Shown: positions 2,168 through 10,587 of the stretch, piece by piece
Layout: every line of letters begins with the position of its first letter
How positions within the stretch are numbered: the stretch's first letter is position 1
NCBI GenBank assembly: GCA_003453695.1
Contig: DMNK01000060.1
Span: 866 to 11,452 of the forward strand
Source of the DNA: Acidimicrobiaceae bacterium
GTDB lineage: Bacteria; Actinomycetota; Acidimicrobiia; Acidimicrobiales; UBA8190
Reading direction: 5' to 3'
DNA length: 10,587 nucleotides
The notes under the pieces: model-generated
Seen by the model: only the letters and a program-made list of their open reading frames with translations
Told to the model about the DNA's origin: nothing
The model's database searches: none
Program-made: the position numbers and the translations under genes

Positions 2168-2536
2168 CTAGTAGTTGAACGTGAGGGCGCCACCCTGTGT
2201 GAACTCGTAGAGCGAGGGGGCCCCTTTGACTTCAGCGCCCTTAACCCAGGAGGCCTCCTCGAGCTGGCGGGTCTTCACGCACACGGGACATGCGAAGAAT
2301 CGCCCACCCTTCTCGATGTACTCATTGTGCAGATCGGCAATGGAGGGCGCGTTGGGCACCGAAAGCTTCTCGCTGTAGCCCTCGGTGGCGATGTGCACTC
2401 CGTCCTTTGTGAGCCACATGACCGCTTCCTTCCCGGCACGGAGTGCTTCGACGCCGAGGAGATAGCCGATCAACACGGACTCGGCGTCATCGGCACCGTG
2501 GGTCTGGCCCACCACGACCTTGTCATCTGTTGCCAT
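2168..2536 (-). CDS. DsrE/DsrF-family sulfur-relay protein
   Basis: The 122-residue soluble protein matches the DsrE-like fold. It has an opening strand VVVGQTHGADD (7-17), a helix with AESVLIGYLLGVEAL, and the conserved segment GGRFFACPVCVKTRQL (77-92) with C83 and C86. In this family such cysteines carry persulfide sulfur between proteins, or the protein forms small oligomers that aid sulfur transfer. An AGGAGGA Shine-Dalgarno 8 bases ahead of ATG 2536 is the strongest in the operon. It follows the MFS gene by 56 bases. Next to a persulfide dioxygenase/rhodanese enzyme, a role as cytosolic persulfide carrier is the likeliest reading; the actual partner is inferred. Confidence 0.85.
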   Translation of the reverse strand: MATDDKVVVGQTHGADDAESVLIGYLLGVEALRAGKEAVMWLTKDGVHIATEGYSEKLSVPNAPSIADLHNEYIEKGGRFFACPVCVKTRQLEEASWVKGAEVKGAPSLYEFTQGGALTFNY

Positions 2537-2592
2537 TTCTGGTTCCTCCTGTCCTGGGTTGTGAGCCGGGCAGTGCCGGTCTCGTCTCTCAA

Positions 2593-3900
2593 CTACAGAT
2601 CGCTCATTTCCTCCACCAAGGCGGCGGCCCCGACCGCATCAGACGCCGGGACACCTCGACGGTGTGTCTCGTACATCCGTACGGCGACAACCAGTCCCGA
2701 CAGCCCGGTCAAGCCGGCTACGAACCAGATGGCGGCTCGAAGCCCAAAGGCGTCGGCCACGACCCCGGCCACCAGGGCCCCGATGGCGAACCCCGCGTCG
2801 CGCCAGAGGCGGTAGACGCCGACGGAGCGGGCCCGCCACGTCGGGTGGGCCACATCACCGATGGCGGCCAGCAGCGTCGGGTACACCATGGCCGTGCCGG
2901 CCCCGAGCAGCAGCGCCCCGAGCGCCCACGGCCAGAAGTTGTGCACCGCAGCGATCAACCCGATGGCAAGCGCTTGGAGCCACATGCCACCGGCGATGAG
3001 CCACTTGCGACCGATCCGATCGGAGAGCGCGCCGGTAACGAGTTGTCCCAGTCCCCACACCGCCGGGTACAGGGCGGCCAGGATGCCGATCCTCGACACC
3101 GACAACCCCGCCCGCGCAAAGAAGAGGGGGAAGATCCCCCAGGCGAGCCCGTCGTTCAAGTTGTTCACCAGTCCAGCCTGGCTGGCCGCCGACAATGCGC
3201 GCTCCTTCAAGCTCGTCAGCCAGAACACCTCCCTGGTGGACAACCCACCATGAGCATCCGGCGAGGCATCGACGTGGCTGGCCGCCTCGAGGCGGGCATG
3301 GCCATGGGTCTCGCGCACAAACAAGGACGAGAGCCCCAACCCGAGGCCGACCACGGCCATCCCGAGGAAGAAGGGCTGAGGACGCAGTCCAGCGTGGGCG
3401 GCGATGAACCCGGTGGCCAGGGCGGCAAGGGCCAGCGCGCCGTAGCCGGCCGCCTCGTTGAGGCCCATGGCCAGTCCACGGCGGCGCGGACCGACCAGGT
3501 CGATCTTCATAATGACGGTGGTGCTCCAGGTGAGCCCCTGATTCACCCCGAGGAGCACGTTGGCGAAGATGATCCACCCCCAACTCGGCCCGTAGGCGAG
3601 CAGGAACGGCACGGGGAGGCCAACCAGCCACCCCGCCACGAGCACCGGCTTGCGACCGACCCGGTCAGAGAGCGTCCCGGCCACGAAGTTGGTGGCCGCC
3701 TTGGTGGCCCCGAAGGCGACGATGAAGGTGAGCGCGGCGGTGAAGGCGTGGAGGTGGAAGACCCGCACGCCGAGAAGCGGCAGGACGGTGCGCTCCTGGC
3801 CGAGGAAGGCGCCGACGAGGGCGTTGACCCCGACGAGGAGCGAGAACTGGGCCAGGTTCTGTCGCAGACCAAGGCGCGTAGGCGCAGCTGCGTTGTTCAT
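2593..3900 (-). CDS. Major facilitator superfamily transporter, 12 TM
   Basis: The 435-residue membrane protein has two six-helix halves. Each carries the MFS loop 2-3 signature: GTLSDRVGRKPVL in the N-half and GALSDRIGRKWLI in the C-half. I count 12 hydrophobic segments with a longer cytoplasmic loop between helices 6 and 7 (around HGHARLEAASHVDASPDAHG). The start is ATG 3900, overlapping the upstream stop as ATGA (3900-3897). A longer in-frame start at 4032 would lie inside the MBL gene and add an Arg/Gly-rich, non-family stretch. The substrate is not recognisable; context suggests export or import of an oxidised or reduced sulfur compound. The last residues GAAALVEEMSDL reappear in a relic at 7798-7854. 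Confidence 0.9.
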   Translation of the reverse strand: MNNAAAPTRLGLRQNLAQFSLLVGVNALVGAFLGQERTVLPLLGVRVFHLHAFTAALTFIVAFGATKAATNFVAGTLSDRVGRKPVLVAGWLVGLPVPFLLAYGPSWGWIIFANVLLGVNQGLTWSTTVIMKIDLVGPRRRGLAMGLNEAAGYGALALAALATGFIAAHAGLRPQPFFLGMAVVGLGLGLSSLFVRETHGHARLEAASHVDASPDAHGGLSTREVFWLTSLKERALSAASQAGLVNNLNDGLAWGIFPLFFARAGLSVSRIGILAALYPAVWGLGQLVTGALSDRIGRKWLIAGGMWLQALAIGLIAAVHNFWPWALGALLLGAGTAMVYPTLLAAIGDVAHPTWRARSVGVYRLWRDAGFAIGALVAGVVADAFGLRAAIWFVAGLTGLSGLVVAVRMYETHRRGVPASDAVGAAALVEEMSDL

Positions 3901-5255
3901 CGGCCAGTGTCCAGTGGCCGGCCCGTCGCCTTCGCCCAGTCGGCCGGCCCGCCGAGGACCACCGTACGGTCCCGGTTGCCGCGTGCCTCCAAGATGCTGG
4001 CGGCGCTCATGGCCCGCTCGCCGTGACCGCACATGATCGTGAGGTGCTCACTGGGCAGCTCGGCCCGGTCGACCGAGCCCAGCTCGGCATGCAGGGCGCC
4101 GGGGATATGGCCTGCGACGAATTCGGCTGCCTGGCGGATGTCGAGAATCGTGCCTGTGGCCTCGGCGGCCGGAACGAGGGCGACACGGCTGTCCTCGAAC
4201 CCGGCCCGCCGCCACGCCCCCATCCCGCCCTCGAGCTCGCCTACGAGGTGCTCGTATCCGACCTTCAGCGCCTGGCGCACCACCTCGCCCCGGTCCTGCT
4301 CGCGATCGAGCACGAAGACGATGGGGCGGCCGTCTTCGACCAGCCACCCGAGCCAGGTGCCGAACTGGTCGCGCAGCTCGATCGAGAGTGCCCCGGGGAT
4401 GTGGGTCTCGGCATATGCCGTGATGGGTCGCACGTCGACCACCACTGCGCCGTCGTCGATACGGCGCCGCACGTCGATCGCGTCGAGACGCGCCAGCGCG
4501 GGCGGATCGGTGCCGAACACAGCGGGGCCTCGTCGGTTCACCTCACGCAGGCGGGTGAAGTAGGGCGGATACGTGCCGAGACCCTTGAAGAGAAGCTTGA
4601 CGAAGGCGTCCTCGTCGGGCGCGCCCAAAAGGGCGTTGCCCGCCTTCTCCGCCCCAATGGTGGTGGTCCGTTCGCCACCAGCCGGCGCCGAGCAGAACGA
4701 GCCTGCTCCATGGGTGGGGTAGACGGGCAGATCGTCGGGGAGCGTCAGGATCCGCTCGTGCAGCGAGCGCCACAGGCTTCGTGCCAGGTTCTCGGTCTGC
4801 TCCGGCGCGATCAGATCGGTGCGGGCCACCGAGCCGACGAGAAGCGACCCGCCCGAGAACAAGGCCATTGGAGCTGCGCCGTCGAGCAGCAGGTAGGAGA
4901 GGTGTTCGGGGGTGTGCCCCGGCGTGGCCAGCGCCCGCAGTGTGAGGCCCCCCAGGTCCACCTCCTCACCGTCGTCGAGACCGCGGTGGGGGAACTCGCT
5001 GTGGCCGGCGGCTGGCGCCAAGACCTGGGCGCCCTGGGCGGCGAGCTCCCGGCTCCCCGAGACGAAGTCAGCGTGAAGGTGGGTCTCGGCGCTGTAGACG
5101 ATGCGATCTCTGCTCTGCGAGGCGGCCCGCAGGTAGGGGCTGGGGTCACGCTCGGGGTCGATGGCGAGCGCCCGTCTGTCGCCGAGGTCGACGACGTAGG
5201 ACGAGTTACCGAGTCCCTCATCGACCACCGGGACGATGATGTCCGAGACGCTCAT
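3897..5255 (-). CDS. CstB-like persulfide dioxygenase with two rhodanese domains
   Basis: The 452-residue protein has three domains. Residues 1-245 are a metallo-beta-lactamase fold of the ETHE1/persulfide dioxygenase type, with THLHAD (H59, H61, D63), PGHTPEH (H114), D147 (SVARTD) and PTHGAGSFC (H182, C188). Residues about 256-350 are a rhodanese-like domain whose active loop reads FVLDREQD with no cysteine, so it is inactive. Residues about 360-450 are a second rhodanese with catalytic C409 (MCGHGERA). This order (dioxygenase, pseudo-rhodanese, rhodanese) is that of Staphylococcus CstB, which turns low-molecular-weight persulfides into thiosulfate; C188 sits where CstB has a functional cysteine in its dioxygenase domain. 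It should act in the cytosol on glutathione-, mycothiol- or similar persulfides. The ATG overlaps the preceding short frame as ATGA. Confidence 0.88.
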   Translation of the reverse strand: MSVSDIIVPVVDEGLGNSSYVVDLGDRRALAIDPERDPSPYLRAASQSRDRIVYSAETHLHADFVSGSRELAAQGAQVLAPAAGHSEFPHRGLDDGEEVDLGGLTLRALATPGHTPEHLSYLLLDGAAPMALFSGGSLLVGSVARTDLIAPEQTENLARSLWRSLHERILTLPDDLPVYPTHGAGSFCSAPAGGERTTTIGAEKAGNALLGAPDEDAFVKLLFKGLGTYPPYFTRLREVNRRGPAVFGTDPPALARLDAIDVRRRIDDGAVVVDVRPITAYAETHIPGALSIELRDQFGTWLGWLVEDGRPIVFVLDREQDRGEVVRQALKVGYEHLVGELEGGMGAWRRAGFEDSRVALVPAAEATGTILDIRQAAEFVAGHIPGALHAELGSVDRAELPSEHLTIMCGHGERAMSAASILEARGNRDRTVVLGGPADWAKATGRPLDTGR

Positions 5256-5404
5256 TGCGGCTTGGTGCCGGCGATGACGATGTAGCCCAGATAGGGAACG
5301 GCGGTCGAGGCTCGTCCTCCTGGGTGGATCACCCGCTTGCCGATAACGGCCATGAACTTGTGGGGGTCGAGCGCCGCCATCTCCCTCGAGGCCAGCTTGG
5401 TCAC
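5252..5404 (-). pseudogene. Probable internally deleted SAM methyltransferase remnant
   Basis: The frame is 50 codons from GTG 5404, which has GGGGAGGGA ending a few bases upstream; a longer in-frame start at 5443 is possible. The first part, DPHKFMAVIGKRVIHPGG, matches my recollection of the N-terminus of a class I methyltransferase group (about 250-290 residues). The last part, VPYLGYIVIAGTKPQ, matches the C-terminal strand of the same group. The SAM-binding core that should lie between is absent, so roughly 200 or more residues seem to have been removed in frame near residues 27-36. The stop still overlaps the MBL-rhodanese start as ATGA. It is first in the operon and may now serve only as a translated leader. 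The alternative is a genuine small protein of unknown function. Confidence 0.5.
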
Positions 5405-5457
5405 CGATCCCTCCCCGTTGTCACGTGCGGGCCTCATCTTCACCCAGGGTTTACGCT

Positions 5458-5489
5458 ATTGTCAAGCAGTTATTTGATCACTTGACAAT
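5458..5489. promoter_or_regulatory. Perfect inverted-repeat operator between divergent sulfur genes
   Basis: ATTGTCAAG (5458-5466) and CTTGACAAT (5481-5489) are perfect 9-base inverted arms around a 14-base AT-rich centre. Each arm holds a TTGACA hexamer on one strand, and the two point outward toward the divergent genes, so a bound dimer would block both promoters. No clean -10 is visible downstream of either hexamer. The ArsR-rhodanese protein encoded 12 bases to the right is the natural candidate to bind it. Confidence 0.65.
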
Positions 5490-5500
5490 GAGAATGGACG

Positions 5501-6190
5501 GTGAGCAGGATGTCCCTCGTGGGAGAGCGCGCCGCCAAGGACAACCTCTACGACGGCTTCGCCGAGGTGGCCAAGGCCCTCTCTAGTGGCCGCCGGGCGG
5601 AGATCGTCGACGTCCTGGCCCAGGGGGCGCGCTCGGTCGAAGAGATCGCCGTCGAGATCGACCAGAGCGTCGCCAATACCTCCCACCACCTCCGCGCCCT
5701 GGCCCGAGCCGGGCTGGTCACGACCCGGCGCGAAGGCACCCGCATCTACTACGCGCTATCCAGCGAGAGAGTGGCCGAGCTGTGGTCGGCGCTGTGTGAC
5801 GTGGCCGGCGAGCACGTCGCCGGGCTCGAGCGCTTGGCCGCTGCCTACCTCGGCGAACGCGACGGCATCGAGGAAGTCGGCCGCGACGAACTGGCCCGGC
5901 GACTCGAGTCAGGCGAGCTGGTCGTCCTCGACGTCCGGCCCGTAGCGGAGTTCGCGGCCGGCCACATCGTGGGGTCTCGTTCTGTGCCCATCGGAGAGCT
6001 GCGCAAGCACCTGCGGGCACTGCCCAAGGAAGTCGAGGTCGTCGCCTACTGCCGGGGCCCCTACTGCGCCTACGCGGACGAGGCGGTGCGCGAGCTCACG
6101 AAGAAGGGTTTCCGTGCCCGCCGCCTGGCCGACGGATTCCCGGAATGGCGACGCGCCGGCCTGCCGGTCGCCGTCGGAGCTGAAAGCTAG
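5501..6190 (+). CDS. ArsR-family repressor fused to a rhodanese domain
   Basis: The protein has 229 residues. Residues about 15-95 are a winged helix-turn-helix of the ArsR/SmtB type (SVANTSHHLRALARAGLV at 56-73, wing GTRIYYALS at 79-87). Residues about 125-225 are a rhodanese domain with VVLDVRPVAEFAAGHI and an active loop YCRGPYCAYADEA containing C184 and C189. Apart from C99 the DNA-binding half has no cysteine, so the usual dithiol sensor of BigR/SqrR regulators is missing. The rhodanese loop could act as the persulfide sensor instead. GTG 5501 is used here; ATG 5510, three codons later, is equally possible and matches the family length. It is divergent from the CstB-like operon and shares the 5458-5489 inverted repeat, which suggests control of that operon and of itself. 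Confidence 0.9.
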   Translation: MSRMSLVGERAAKDNLYDGFAEVAKALSSGRRAEIVDVLAQGARSVEEIAVEIDQSVANTSHHLRALARAGLVTTRREGTRIYYALSSERVAELWSALCDVAGEHVAGLERLAAAYLGERDGIEEVGRDELARRLESGELVVLDVRPVAEFAAGHIVGSRSVPIGELRKHLRALPKEVEVVAYCRGPYCAYADEAVRELTKKGFRARRLADGFPEWRRAGLPVAVGAES

Positions 6191-6222
6191 ATGGCGGCGG
6201 TGTCGTCCTCCGAGGTCCGACC

Positions 6223-7044
6223 ATGACCGATGAGCTGACAGCGCCACCCGGCCTGGTGCATCTCGCTGAGGGGCGCGAGGCTGAAGTCTTCCTTCGCGAC
6301 GACGGAAGCGTCGTGAAGATCATGCGCAGCGCCGCTCAGGCACCGAGGGTCCAGCGCGAAGCGGCCGCGCTCCAGGCGCTCGCTGGGAAGGAGCATCTGG
6401 CGCCGGCGTTCAGGGAGGTCACCAACGTTGCTGGTCGGCCCGCGCTGGTGAGCGAGCGGGTGACCGGTGCCGACTTCCTGGCAGTGCTGTCGAGAAAGCC
6501 GTGGCTCGTGCTCGGCGTGGCCGGCAGCCTGGGCCGTGCCCACGCCGCTATGCATGAGCACCGGGCACCGGTTTCCCTGCCCGAGCTCAACGACGAACTG
6601 GCCCGGCGAATCGAGTCAGCCAGTGCCCTGCCACCGAATCTCGCGTCGGAGGCGCTCATCCGGCTCCGGACCCTCCCGAGCGGAGATCGCCTCTGTCACG
6701 GGGATTACCACCCGGCCAACATCCTCGGGACGCTGAAGGCGCCTGTGATCATCGATTGGGGCGATGCCTCGCGGGGCGCACCCGTGGCGGATGTGGCGCG
6801 CACATTGCTGCTCCTTCGGGCAGGGGAACTCCCGCCCGACACCCCCGTAGCCATGCGGGCGCTCACCGCTGTCGGGAGGGGACTGCTCACGCGGCGCTAC
6901 CTCGCCGTCTATCGCCGAAGTGCGGGGCATGACCTGGCTCGTCTGGACGACTGGATGTTCGTGCGGGTGGCGGCCCGTTTCAACGAAGAGATCGAGGTCG
7001 AATACCCGCGCCTCACACGGCTATTGGAGGAGGCTTCACAATGA
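6223..7044 (+). CDS. Aminoglycoside phosphotransferase (APH)-like kinase
   Basis: The 273-residue protein has the APH/choline kinase-like fold. The N-lobe contains VVKIMRS (K near residue 30, likely the ATP-binding lysine) and REAAALQAL. The Brenner-type catalytic loop is CHGDYHPANIL, with D161 and N166, and the metal-binding IIDWGDASRG has D178. All key residues are present, so it should transfer phosphate from ATP to a small molecule. The family is broad and substrates range from aminoglycosides and macrolides to sugars and homoserine; nothing here picks one, and context does not suggest an antibiotic cluster. The start ATG 6223 has a weak GAGGT 5-10 bases upstream. It begins 32 bases after the ArsR-rhodanese stop, so it may be co-transcribed, and it overlaps the next gene by 4 bases. 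Confidence 0.85.
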   Translation: MTDELTAPPGLVHLAEGREAEVFLRDDGSVVKIMRSAAQAPRVQREAAALQALAGKEHLAPAFREVTNVAGRPALVSERVTGADFLAVLSRKPWLVLGVAGSLGRAHAAMHEHRAPVSLPELNDELARRIESASALPPNLASEALIRLRTLPSGDRLCHGDYHPANILGTLKAPVIIDWGDASRGAPVADVARTLLLLRAGELPPDTPVAMRALTAVGRGLLTRRYLAVYRRSAGHDLARLDDWMFVRVAARFNEEIEVEYPRLTRLLEEASQ

Positions 7045-7967: not shown

Positions 7968-8288
7968 GTGGCAGCTTACCGTTCTTCGGCCCTCCTGGCG
8001 CTGGGTGACCCCACCCGCCTGGCCATCTTGGAGCGGCTAACGGAGAGCCCCCTCGCAGTGGTCGACCTCACGCGAGGGCTGCCGGTCAGCCGCCCGGCGG
8101 TGTCGCAGCACCTGCGCGTGCTCAAAGACGCCGGCCTCGTCGTCGACGAGGCCGTGGGCAACCGCCGCATCTACCGCGTCGATCCCGACGCGCTGGCCGC
8201 GCTGCGAGATCAGCTCGACCGGTTCTGGGGGAAGGCCATGGCCGCGTACAAGACGACCGTGGAAGAAACCACGAAGGAGGACCGATGA
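7968..8288 (+). CDS. ArsR-family repressor of an SRPBCC operon
   Basis: The 106-residue winged helix-turn-helix protein opens with ALGDPTRLAILERL, the hallmark of the family. Its recognition helix is in SRPAVSQHLRVLKDAGLV and its wing is NRRIYRVDP. It has no cysteine and no obvious metal site, as is common for the ArsR proteins that lead operons with AHSA1/SRPBCC genes. It starts at GTG 7968, and the stop overlaps the next start as ATGA (8285-8288). It probably represses its own operon. The inducer is unknown. Confidence 0.9.
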   Translation: MAAYRSSALLALGDPTRLAILERLTESPLAVVDLTRGLPVSRPAVSQHLRVLKDAGLVVDEAVGNRRIYRVDPDALAALRDQLDRFWGKAMAAYKTTVEETTKEDR

Positions 8289-8773
8289 GTCAATCGGCAC
8301 CGTCGACCAGCGTTCGCCATTCTGTCGTGGTGGAGGCTCCCATCGACACGGCCTTCAAGGTGTTCACCGAGGACTTCGGCCGCTTCAAGCCGCCCGAGCA
8401 CAACATGCTCGGCGTGGACATCGCCGAGACCATCTTCGAGCCTCGCGCCGGTGGCAGCCTCTACGACCGTGGTGTAGACGGCAGCGAATGTCGCTGGGGT
8501 CGCGTCCTGGCCTACGAACCTCCTCATCGTGTGGTGGTCAGCTGGGACATCAGCCCCACTTGGCAGATCGAGACCGACCTCGACAAGACCAGCGAGTTCG
8601 AGGTGCGCTTCACGGTTGAGACGCCCGGGCGGACAAAGGTGGAGCTGGAGCATCGTTATCTCGACCGCCACGGCGAAGGTTGGGAAGGTGTCCGAGCCGG
8701 AGTGGACGGGGACCAGGGTTGGCCGCTTTACCTGGGTCGGTTTGCCGGGCTGCTGAAGGTGGAGGCTGACTGA
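8285..8773 (+). CDS. SRPBCC/AHSA1-family protein
   Basis: The 162-residue protein is of the START/Bet v1-like SRPBCC superfamily, closest to the Aha1 C-terminal type. It opens with SVVVEAPIDTAFKVFTED (14-31), has the conserved turn FEPRAGGSLYDRG and the strand WGRVLAYEPPHRVVVSW, and closes with a long C-terminal helix. These proteins form a deep hydrophobic pocket for a lipid-like or aromatic ligand; some act as cyclases or hydrolases, most are uncharacterised. AGGAGG lies 4 bases ahead of the ATG, which overlaps the arsR stop by 4 bases. The ArsR-AHSA1 pair is a very common bacterial arrangement. Confidence 0.87.
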   Translation: MSQSAPSTSVRHSVVVEAPIDTAFKVFTEDFGRFKPPEHNMLGVDIAETIFEPRAGGSLYDRGVDGSECRWGRVLAYEPPHRVVVSWDISPTWQIETDLDKTSEFEVRFTVETPGRTKVELEHRYLDRHGEGWEGVRAGVDGDQGWPLYLGRFAGLLKVEAD

Positions 8774-9234
8774 TGTCGATCTCGACCAGCATCGACGTGG
8801 ATCGTCCACCCAGCGAGGTCTTCGCCTACGTCACCGATCCCGGCCGTTTCGCCGAGTGGCAGAACGGCGTCGTCGGTGGGCGCATGGCGAACGGGGGGCC
8901 ACAGTCGGTCGGCGATCGGTGCGTCACGACCCGTCGCATTGGGTTTGCCGAGCGGCCGGTGACCTCGGAAGTCACCCACATCGAGCCACCACGGAAGTGG
9001 GGAGTGCGAGGAATCGACGGCCCCATTCGCGCCGAGGTGAACGTCACCGTCGAGACGCTCGAGAGCGACCAGCGATCACGAGTGACGATCGAACTTGAAT
9101 TCGCCGGCCATGGGATCGGGATCCTCCTGGTCCCTCTCGTCGTCCGCCCCCGGGCCCGCAAAGAGATGCCAGTCAACATTCGGAGACTCAAGCAGCGATT
9201 AGAAGCTGACTCCCGGCCCGCAGCGAGCACGTAG
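8773..9234 (+). CDS. SRPBCC-family protein (polyketide cyclase/dehydrase type)
   Basis: The 153-residue protein is a second SRPBCC-fold protein. It has the typical N-terminal strand and helix STSIDVDRPPSEVFAYVTD (4-22), followed by PGRFAEWQNGV, and a C-terminal helix preceded by a hydrophobic strand and basic turn (VVRPRARKEMP). It is of a different branch from its neighbour, with little obvious residue identity between the two. The ATG shares one base with the previous stop (TGATG at 8771-8775) and has GGTGGAGG 7 bases upstream, so the two are translated together. The ligand and any enzymatic role are unknown. It ends the operon. Confidence 0.85.
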   Translation: MSISTSIDVDRPPSEVFAYVTDPGRFAEWQNGVVGGRMANGGPQSVGDRCVTTRRIGFAERPVTSEVTHIEPPRKWGVRGIDGPIRAEVNVTVETLESDQRSRVTIELEFAGHGIGILLVPLVVRPRARKEMPVNIRRLKQRLEADSRPAAST

Positions 9235-9275: not shown

Positions 9276-9317
9276 TCGACAGGGGCCATGATCATCGATT
9301 ATCATCGATAGTCGATG
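9276..9317 (+). promoter_or_regulatory. Promoter and operator of the arsenic-type arsR
   Basis: TCGACA (9276-9281, 5 of 6) and TATCAT (9300-9305, 5 of 6) are 18 bases apart, placing the transcript start within a few bases of ATG 9315. Over the -10 lie a direct repeat ATCATCGAT (9291-9299 and 9301-9309) and the inverted repeat CATCGA-TAG-TCGATG (9303-9317), which covers the start codon. A protein bound here would block both polymerase and, in a leaderless message, the start site. Autorepression by the ArsR protein encoded at 9315 is the likely use. Confidence 0.6.
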
Positions 9318-9710
9318 GAGGTGGACAGGAACTCGGCCGAGGTCTGGGCATCGTGGTTCCGATGCCTCGGGGACCCCTCTCGGGTCCTCCTGCTCAACTG
9401 CCTGGCCACCGCCGAGTCGCCGATGACCGTGGGCGAGCTCGTCGGCCGGGTCGACATCGGACAGTCGACGGTCTCGCACCACCTGAAGGTCCTCGCCGAG
9501 ACCGGCTTCGTGCACTCCGAACGTCGGGCCAACACCACGTTGTTCCGGGTGAACGAGCGTTGCCTCGAGCGCTTTCCCTCGGCGGCCGAGCTGATCATGG
9601 GTGTGCTTCCTCGCTACGACCCCACCCCCTCGAGCTGCGTCGCGCCGTGGCAGGACGGCCACCCCCAAGACCGTCCCCGCGGTCGTTCGCGAACGGGGGT
9701 TGCCCGGTGA
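9315..9710 (+). CDS. arsR: ArsR-family (arsenic-type) transcriptional repressor
   Basis: The 131-residue protein has LGDPSRVLLLNCL (18-30), the recognition helix in QSTVSHHLKVLAETGFV and the wing ANTTLFRVN. Cysteines occur at FRCLGD, LNCLAT, NERCLE and SSCVAP, giving several possible metalloid ligands, though the classic ELCVCDL motif is absent. The final 35 residues are Pro/Arg/Gly-rich and look disordered. Start ATG 9315 sits directly behind a promoter and is covered by an operator-like repeat. The stop overlaps an in-frame GTG of the next gene as GTGA, although a better start lies 30 bases on. Its position ahead of an arsM-type gene supports arsenite or methylarsenite as inducer; this is inference. 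Confidence 0.88.
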   Translation: MEVDRNSAEVWASWFRCLGDPSRVLLLNCLATAESPMTVGELVGRVDIGQSTVSHHLKVLAETGFVHSERRANTTLFRVNERCLERFPSAAELIMGVLPRYDPTPSSCVAPWQDGHPQDRPRGRSRTGVAR

Positions 9711-9736: not shown

Positions 9737-10587
9737 ATGAGCGGTGGTCCGCCTGAGCGAACGGCCATCCGCCTCGAGCTCGAGCAAGCGCGCCTGTCGT
9801 TCCGCGACCTGGTCTCGAGCGCGATTGAGGAAGACTTCGCTCGACCCAGCAACGGCACCCGCTGGACCAATCGGCAACTGCTCTTCCACATGATGTTCGG
9901 TTATCTGATCGTGCGAACACTCTTGCCCATGGTCAAGGTGGTCGGCCGGCTGCCGGAAGCGATGGGACGTGGCTTCGCTGCCGGGCTCAACGCGGCCACC
10001 GGTCCGTTCAACGTCATCAACTACTGGGGCTCGGTCGCCGGTGCCCGCCTCTACGGCGACCGTCGGATGACGGGCAAGTTCGACGCAGCGGTCTCTCGTC
10101 TCGGAGAGCGTCTGGCTACGGAGAGCCAGGCCGAATTGGCCCGGCCGGTGGCTTTTCCCGTGCGGTGGGACCCGTTCTTCAAACCGGTGATGACCCTGCT
10201 GGACGTCTACCACTACCCGACGCAGCACTTTGAATTCCATCGGCGCCAGCTGACCCTCGTCGACCGGCGCAAAGAGGAGGTCGATATGGACGATCCCGAC
10301 AGCGAGATCCGCAGCGCCGTGCGCGAGCACTACGCCAAGGCGGCCCAGGCCGTGGAGAGCTGCTGTGGGCCGACAGGGTCCGCAGAAGACCTCATCGGCC
10401 GCACGCTGTATGACGAAAAGGAAGCGACCGCACTGCCCGAAGGGGCACTGGCCGCCTCGCTCGGATGTGGGAACCCGACTGTCCTGGCCGAGCTGCGGCC
10501 CGGTGAGGTGGTACTCGACCTGGGCTCGGGAGGCGGCATCGACGTGCTCCTCTCCGCCCGTCGGGTCGCCCCGTCGGGCAAGGCCTA
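9737..10587 (+). CDS. arsM: DinB-like domain fused in frame to arsenite methyltransferase (ArsM), 3' end outside window
   Basis: One open frame runs for 283 codons to the window edge without a stop; I checked each codon. Residues about 10-175 look like a DinB-superfamily four-helix domain, with [18 protein letters not shown] (H51) and [10 protein letters not shown] (H164 and H168), which fit the usual metal triad of one His plus HxxxH. From M184 the sequence is ArsM-like, with ESCCGP (C209, C210), SLGCGNP (C244) and the SAM loop [12 protein letters not shown] (258-269). ArsM adds methyl groups from SAM to arsenite bound by cysteines; the later cysteines lie outside the window. The start ATG 9737 has GGAAGGAG 8 bases upstream. 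ArsM alone normally begins at the position of M184, where a second strong ribosome site exists, so both a fusion and a free ArsM could be made. Confidence 0.85.
10271..10288 (+). promoter_or_regulatory. Internal ribosome-binding site and ATG for a free ArsM
   Basis: AAAGAGGAGG (10271-10280) lies 5 bases ahead of ATG 10286, inside the long open frame and in the same frame. The following codons ([17 protein letters not shown]) are what actinobacterial ArsM proteins typically begin with. This is a good signal for separate translation of ArsM, and it may be the ancestral start of arsM before the upstream stop codon was lost. Confidence 0.6.

Follow-up and report, generated by a model that had tools for sequence, protein, structure and literature searches.

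The locus described here raises the question of whether an arsenite methyltransferase, ArsM, is produced in one chain with a DinB-type metal-binding domain, and what such a partner might contribute. The DNA analyzed is a stretch of 10,587 nucleotides from an Acidimicrobiaceae bacterium (GenBank assembly GCA_003453695.1, contig DMNK01000060.1, positions 866 to 11,452), referred to as the window, and the gene in question lies at its end. ArsM is thought to take arsenic that is bound to small thiols, and we know of no enzyme that prepares thiol-bound arsenic for ArsM in mycothiol-making bacteria.

A DinB domain and ArsM in one chain

The forward-strand frame from 9737 to 10587 was found to contain no stop codon, its translation giving 283 residues, and domain scans placed a DinB/YfiT-type domain and ArsM on the same chain, as had been proposed in a first-pass annotation made from the DNA letters. 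The DinB/YfiT-like domain occupies 9737-10285 (residues 1-183, counted from ATG 9737), with the linker between the domains at 10253-10285, where residues 179-185 had a predicted local distance difference test (pLDDT) score below 50 in the structure model. The N-terminal part of ArsM follows at 10286-10587, and the gene runs on past the window. An open in-frame junction is by itself weak evidence, since about ten stop-free codons in one of three frames would, by our estimate, be expected roughly once in five, and the weight for the fusion therefore rests on recurrence and conservation.

A public protein of 462 amino acids (P0002), 99% identical and with four differences from the 283 residues of the window, reads through the junction. 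Protein searches of the kind suggested in the annotation returned, besides P0002, 14 further DinB::ArsM proteins, comprising P0003-P0015 (65-78% identical to the window protein, covering 98-100% of the query) and P0122 (72% identical over the DinB part), and the longest contigs bearing fused proteins ranged from 1.5 to 246 kb. Because P0002 and further fused proteins occur in public contigs, the DinB::ArsM fusion in the window is real and is no sequencing error. A stop or frameshift hidden by such an error was ruled out by the recurrence of other fused proteins, nor do the homologous loci all carry two separate genes, since fused homologues exist.

The ArsM half was recognized from residues 188-283, which matched the arsenite methyltransferase model PRK11873 at 99 bits on the truncated piece held by the window. 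As a run of N follows directly on the window, the second part of ArsM was taken from P0002 and from the sequence past the run, and residues 188-458 of the full-length P0002 reached 324.8 bits, passing the PRK11873 cut-off of 263. Three cysteines, C244 (codon 10466-10468), C332 and C382, aligned with C72, C174 and C224 of C. merolae ArsM, which are described as integral to arsenite binding (PMC5552862). Motifs of these three cysteines were present in 15, 14 and 14 of the 15 fused proteins, the single miss being P0008, which is divergent at its C-terminal end. Since the model cut-off was passed and the three cysteines aligned, the ArsM half looks like a working arsenite methyltransferase. The cysteine pair that the annotation had assigned to ArsM is also present (C209-C210, codons 10361-10366), lying near C44 of C. 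merolae ArsM in the alignment but not aligned with it.

For the DinB half, residues 14-172 matched Pfam DinB_2 at 30.1 bits (gathering score 24.8) and residues 16-138 matched Pfam MDMPI_N at 28.9 bits (cut-off 24.2). The three presumed metal ligands of the predicted helical domain, H51 (codon 9887-9889) together with H164 and H168 (codons spanning 10226-10240), did not vary in any of the 37 DinB rows aligned, again in keeping with the annotation. The structure model gave a four-helix fold of the YfiT type, and the nearest folds on comparison were YfiT, mycothiol-dependent maleylpyruvate isomerase (MDMPI), a mycothiol S-transferase and other DinB proteins. No PDB chain was found by sequence with the DinB family profile at E-values up to 1.

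A tree built from 73 DinB domains placed all 15 DinB::ArsM rows within one group of 23 rows (support 88/86 only) that also held eight rows not read as fused. Two better-supported clades were wholly fused (five of five rows, 100/94; six of six rows, 97/90), and the fused P0014 was placed among the non-fused P0020, P0022, P0031 and P0033 (branches 98/86 and 100/97). The tree rows are top matches to a fused query, which biases them toward fused rows, and some of those called separate may be proteins that a sequencing error has broken or a contig end has truncated. P0017 was scored as fused by hand, the tree lacks P0055, P0057 and P0016, and P0122 came to light afterwards.

It could be that the fusion is a by-product of operon structure, with overlapping dinB and arsM genes occasionally put in frame by an indel, the halves working independently and their union having no special function. 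The nested position of P0014 speaks for this, as does the short linker, which makes chance fusion easy. The frame of P0019 is likewise compatible with an arsM start reached in a different frame: its C-terminal codons could encode an arsM-like start in the next frame, as was the case for no other protein examined (61,414 residue positions), although this test depends on codon choice and speaks to compatibility only, not to the DNA itself. We nevertheless regard a functionless by-product as rather unlikely, given that two supported clades are fused throughout despite a DinB identity to the window that falls to 60%, albeit in a sample biased to fused rows, and that a reverse-order ArsM fusion and ArsC-type fusions (see below) also exist. 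From the placement of P0014 and the frame of P0019, the fused or separate state probably toggles through small indels near an overlap. Separate dinB and arsM genes side by side are hinted at by P0027 and P0082 (both on contigs of 118,201 nt) and by P0031 and P0079 (both 5,770 nt), equal contig size being a weak sign of adjacency, as P0009 and P0033 share a size of 1,486 nt that is too small for both.

The arsM start inside the fused gene

At the junction, the first-pass annotation had pointed to a sequence and an ATG that might serve as an internal start for free ArsM. The AAAGAGGAGG at 10271-10280 and ATG 10286 (10286-10288) do share the frame of the fused gene, with AGGAGG ahead of the ATG. 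The GAGGAGGTCGAnATG of the window also precedes the free arsM of a genome from the same family (G010, locus L004), which reads GACGAGGAGGTCGAAATG at the place of the window's AAAGAGGAGGTCGATATG; upstream of this free gene lie an ACR3-like frame and a small cysteine-containing frame (named by eye), and no dinB. Because GAGGAGGTCGAnATG is shared with this free gene, ATG 10286 is read here as the ancestral arsM start with its own ribosome-binding site, retained inside the coding sequence. Four copies of the arrangement AGGAGG-N(4-9)-ATG were counted in the window, where shuffles gave an expectation of 0.38.

The methionine of the ArsM start was present in 17 of 17 fused linkers and a glutamate at position -3 in 15 of 17, with positions -4 to -7 variable. 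This count used a pattern that requires methionine, the shared column being verified on an alignment (A1; 14 of 14 fused rows and P0018), and it omitted P0001 (the same gene as P0002), P0016 (whose halves are oddly joined) and P0122, of which the latter two carry the methionine also.

With the ribosome-binding site and start of arsM kept within the fused frame, it is likely that free ArsM is made beside the fused protein. The alternative is that the fused protein alone is produced, the internal ribosome-binding site and ATG being a relic or encoding a needed Glu-x-Asp-Met linker, and methionine codons can indeed persist by descent. That outcome appears improbable, as the methionine is kept throughout while the linker varies just ahead of it, the E-[VAI]-[DE]-M of most rows is the expected product of a kept GAGGTCGAnATG, and the linker is of low model confidence. 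Searches with the DinB half in 148, 395, 396 and 397 genomes (overlapping samples) and in genome contigs did not recover the DNA of other DinB::ArsM genes, and none of the best 80 of 181 DinB relatives in genome contigs was fused to ArsM. The other fused genes are thus known as protein only, so that the ribosome-binding site is visible as DNA for the window and for free arsM genes, and elsewhere is deduced from residues.

The locus, its origin and the wider DinB family

Directly upstream of the fused gene lies an arsR-type repressor gene on the same strand (9315-9710), the product of which matched Pfam HTH_5 at 49.1 bits (cut-off 22) and NCBIfam HTH_metalloreg at 67.2 bits (cut-off 55). The fused gene may start at GTG 9707 (9707-9709) rather than at ATG 9737: the GTG is in frame, ten codons upstream, overlaps the arsR stop TGA at 9708-9710 (GTGA) and matches the place at which P0003 and P0006 (472 amino acids each) begin. 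ATG 9737 is preceded by AAGGAG. Upstream of arsR, a second arsR-type gene and two SRPBCC genes (8285-8773 and 8773-9234) lie on the same strand at 7968-9234, and a sulfur-handling set at 2168-6190 comprises a rhodanese/metallo-beta-lactamase protein, an ArsR-rhodanese fusion, and major facilitator superfamily and DsrE-like genes.

Past the window, arsM coding resumes after the N run at contig positions 11686-12168, and the fused-gene stop overlaps (ATGA) an open reading frame of 37 residues with seven cysteines (contig 12165-12278), which is likely a further part of the system. The CxxCxC...CCC pattern of this cysteine-rich frame was also present in P0159 and P0160, there ahead of a DinB domain, and was found neither in the remaining proteins examined nor in other places of 1.64 Mb of loci. 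Further along (contig 13954-15174), a flavoprotein of the thioredoxin-reductase type carries a fused glutaredoxin and may act as reductant for the arsenic genes.

The contig that carries the window is 23 kb long and one of 173 in the genome, and the window is flanked by N runs at both ends (contig positions 592-865, just before it, and 11453-11685, 233 N, at its end). In the overlapping genome samples, the only hit to the DinB half came from its own genome in each of three sets (148 relatives, 395 members of the class and 397 of the order), and in the phylum it was present in six of 396 genomes, its own included. The N runs and the lack of the DinB half in every other relative searched would be compatible with an assembly or binning artefact in which the dinB part is foreign to the genome. 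Such an artefact is nonetheless very improbable: other contigs of as much as 246 kb also carry the fused protein, and G010 (77%), the best genome match for the arsM half, is of the same family. Another window protein is 71% identical there, which speaks against misbinning. Horizontal gain fits better. A stretch resembling a tRNA 3' end is present in single copy in the genome at contig 12488-12517, where no whole tRNA was found, and is followed by an open reading frame with a phage-integrase N-terminal domain (contig 13051-13875), a possible island edge; together, these two features suggest that the locus lies on a mobile island.

The neighborhoods of the 80 best relatives, all actinobacterial by record title, most often contained ArsR (43 loci) and ArsC (40), followed by flavin monooxygenase (26), ArsI (23), aquaporin (21), ACR3 (20), MerR (10-11), MerB (10), MerA (4) and ArsM (4). 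At least one of ACR3, ArsI, ArsC, ArsM, MerA and MerB was present in 51 of the 80 loci compared with none of 40 control stretches from three genomes, the reference proteins having been drawn from the same loci, which biases toward finding them. The loci are not independent, as genera repeat, and 11 of them are shorter than 9 kb; the neighbor names rest on nine representatives, among which ACR3, ArsI/CadI, MerA and ArsR exceeded curated cut-offs and ArsC, MerB, MerR, MIP and flavin monooxygenase fell below them. In actinobacteria, the DinB family is thus often found in islands for resistance to arsenic and mercury. A DinB relative was also present in 42 plasmid records, 35 of them called mobilizable or conjugative, and the five inspected held an ars island (L123), merB (L126), cadmium/copper genes (L124), a metal transporter together with a methyltransferase gene overlapping dinB (L122), and no metal genes (L125). 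The methyltransferase gene of L122, a Kocuria plasmid, is of class I and overlaps dinB by 4 nt (5372-6537).

The annotation had entertained a thiol-conjugating partner domain for arsenic methylation. At the level of fold, the likeness to thiol-dependent DinB enzymes stands, and the restriction to methylation does not: arsM was directly upstream of dinB in 3 of the 80 loci (L066, L072 and L106), against 51 with an arsenic or mercury gene, and the family has other fusions. As the fusion is lineage-bound and separate-gene relatives exist, a dedicated arsenic-methylation partner is too narrow a description and was rejected.

When proteins of fused length were queried with the DinB part alone, 61 were returned, some of which may be gene-prediction joins. 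Domain scans identified the reverse order, ArsM::DinB, in P0018 and an ArsC-type::DinB order in P0146 and P0148 and, in part, P0156, the ArsC-type parts scoring 68-82 bits against cut-offs of 158-215. Precomputed Pfam marks, combined with the DinB positions from these scans, placed SRPBCC domains with DinB in one order in P0131, P0137, P0157 and P0158 and in the opposite order in P0134, another class I methyltransferase with DinB in P0128, P0136, P0142, P0144, P0145, P0150, P0153 and P0154, and a PfpI-type protein with DinB in P0140; the methyltransferase of P0142 reached 20 bits against the arsenite methyltransferase cut-off of 263. No second domain was named in most of the remaining proteins. 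The SRPBCC genes upstream of the window arsR parallel the SRPBCC fusions of this same DinB family.

A possible thiol-transfer step, and comparison with known systems

In the explanation that we prefer, tentatively and at just short of an even call, the DinB half would be a metal-dependent, probably mycothiol-using thiol transferase that forms or hands over thiol-arsenic conjugates and is fused to ArsM. The gene right behind arsR, presumably under ArsR control, would encode a DinB/S-transferase-like metal-binding domain, a short flexible linker and a complete ArsM. The DinB domain would put a low-molecular-weight thiol, mycothiol, onto the metalloid or take it off in a metal-dependent manner, ArsM, or ArsC in other fusions, would thereby receive or shed the thiol-bound form, and free ArsM from the internal start would probably be made alongside the fused enzyme. 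The family would then serve as an accessory in actinobacterial resistance to arsenic and mercury. ArsC1 and ArsC2 are described as joining arsenate to mycothiol in mycothiol-making bacteria (PMC10950700), and the ArsC-type::DinB fusion therefore fits. MshC-like and MshA-like proteins are encoded in the host genome, both scoring below the curated cut-offs (418.4 against 485.1 bits and 405.2 against 462.5 bits, respectively). A bolder version seems doubtful: that this is an undescribed class of metalloid-thiol transferase in actinobacterial resistance to arsenic and mercury, which loads or removes mycothiol on As(III)/As(V), hands the conjugate on to ArsM or ArsC, and has been fused to these more than once and for ArsM in both orders, with one mRNA of the DinB::ArsM lineage giving both a thiol-fed fused ArsM and a free ArsM.

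Several observations weigh against a thiol transferase. The YfiT-like fold matches are DinB-wide and not specific to thiol enzymes, with a best Foldseek E-value of 5e-3, and the whole-protein model had a predicted template modeling score (pTM) of 0.56, too low to position the two domains relative to each other. The mycothiol-dependent model TIGR03083 was not matched by the window protein at an E-value of 0.001, and the relatives P0146, P0148 and P0134 scored 21.0, 19.5 and 22.9 bits against its cut-off of 50. The M. tuberculosis mycothiol S-transferase is described as using two histidines and one aspartate, not three histidines (PMC10950700). None of the six core genes was present in 29 of the 80 loci, and the mercury, cadmium/copper and metal-free neighborhoods argue for a broader role. 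The fusion itself appears not to be essential, because non-fused rows fall inside the fused group.

It could instead be that the three-histidine site itself binds or converts As(III), methylated products or organometals, without a thiol cofactor, and that what ArsM produces is channeled to this site by the fusion. The three histidines are invariant, and the MerB, MerA and ArsI genes that adjoin the family have products that act on metals or organometals. We consider this unlikely, as some of the nearest solved folds of known function are thiol-dependent and the DinB half of the window contains no cysteine able to bind As(III).

If the thiol transferase that we prefer is correct, a DinB domain joined to ArsM and to ArsC-type reductase, in islands on chromosomes and plasmids, would be a named and testable candidate for the arsenic-thiol step, and genes annotated merely as 'DinB family protein' would gain a likely metal-resistance role. 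In the open-licence literature, no report was found of DinB paired with ArsM, nor, among the matches listed, of DinB with ArsC or of the DinB family in ars or mer islands. 'DinB' is absent from the main text of PMC6514093, PMC7767326, PMC6205960 and PMC5552862; in the accessible text of PMC6016940 it stands in unrelated table lines only, and that of PMC2829063 lists a dinB-like gene among DNA-repair genes. ArsM fusions and two-domain DinB enzymes are already known, and what seems new is the joining of DinB with ArsM or ArsC and the presence of the family in ars and mer islands.

Compared with stand-alone ArsM, the ArsM half passes the same model cut-off (PRK11873) and has the same three cysteines, while the fused protein adds an N-terminal DinB domain and the start of the free form sits within the frame. 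The known ars fusions, which include ArsR-ArsC, Acr3-ArsC, AqpS-ArsC and ArsN-ArsC (PMC6205960), ArsR-M (PMC10190100) and ArsM-SelD (PMC5552862), likewise place an arsenic protein and a partner in a single chain, with DinB not named as a partner in the accessible parts of these sources. The four-helix fold is common to the window domain and the DinB/S-transferase-like superfamily (YfiT/BstA, MDMPI and mycothiol S-transferase), and the three conserved histidines of the window domain are as described for B. subtilis BstA-H (PMC5815605). Unlike the described members of that superfamily, the family found here is often located in arsenic and mercury islands and is fused to ArsM or ArsC-type proteins. 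There is also a parallel in architecture with the EgtB-type enzymes, in which DinB is joined to a second domain thought to set the non-thiol substrate (PMC5815605); here, unlike in those enzymes, the second domain is an arsenite methyltransferase.
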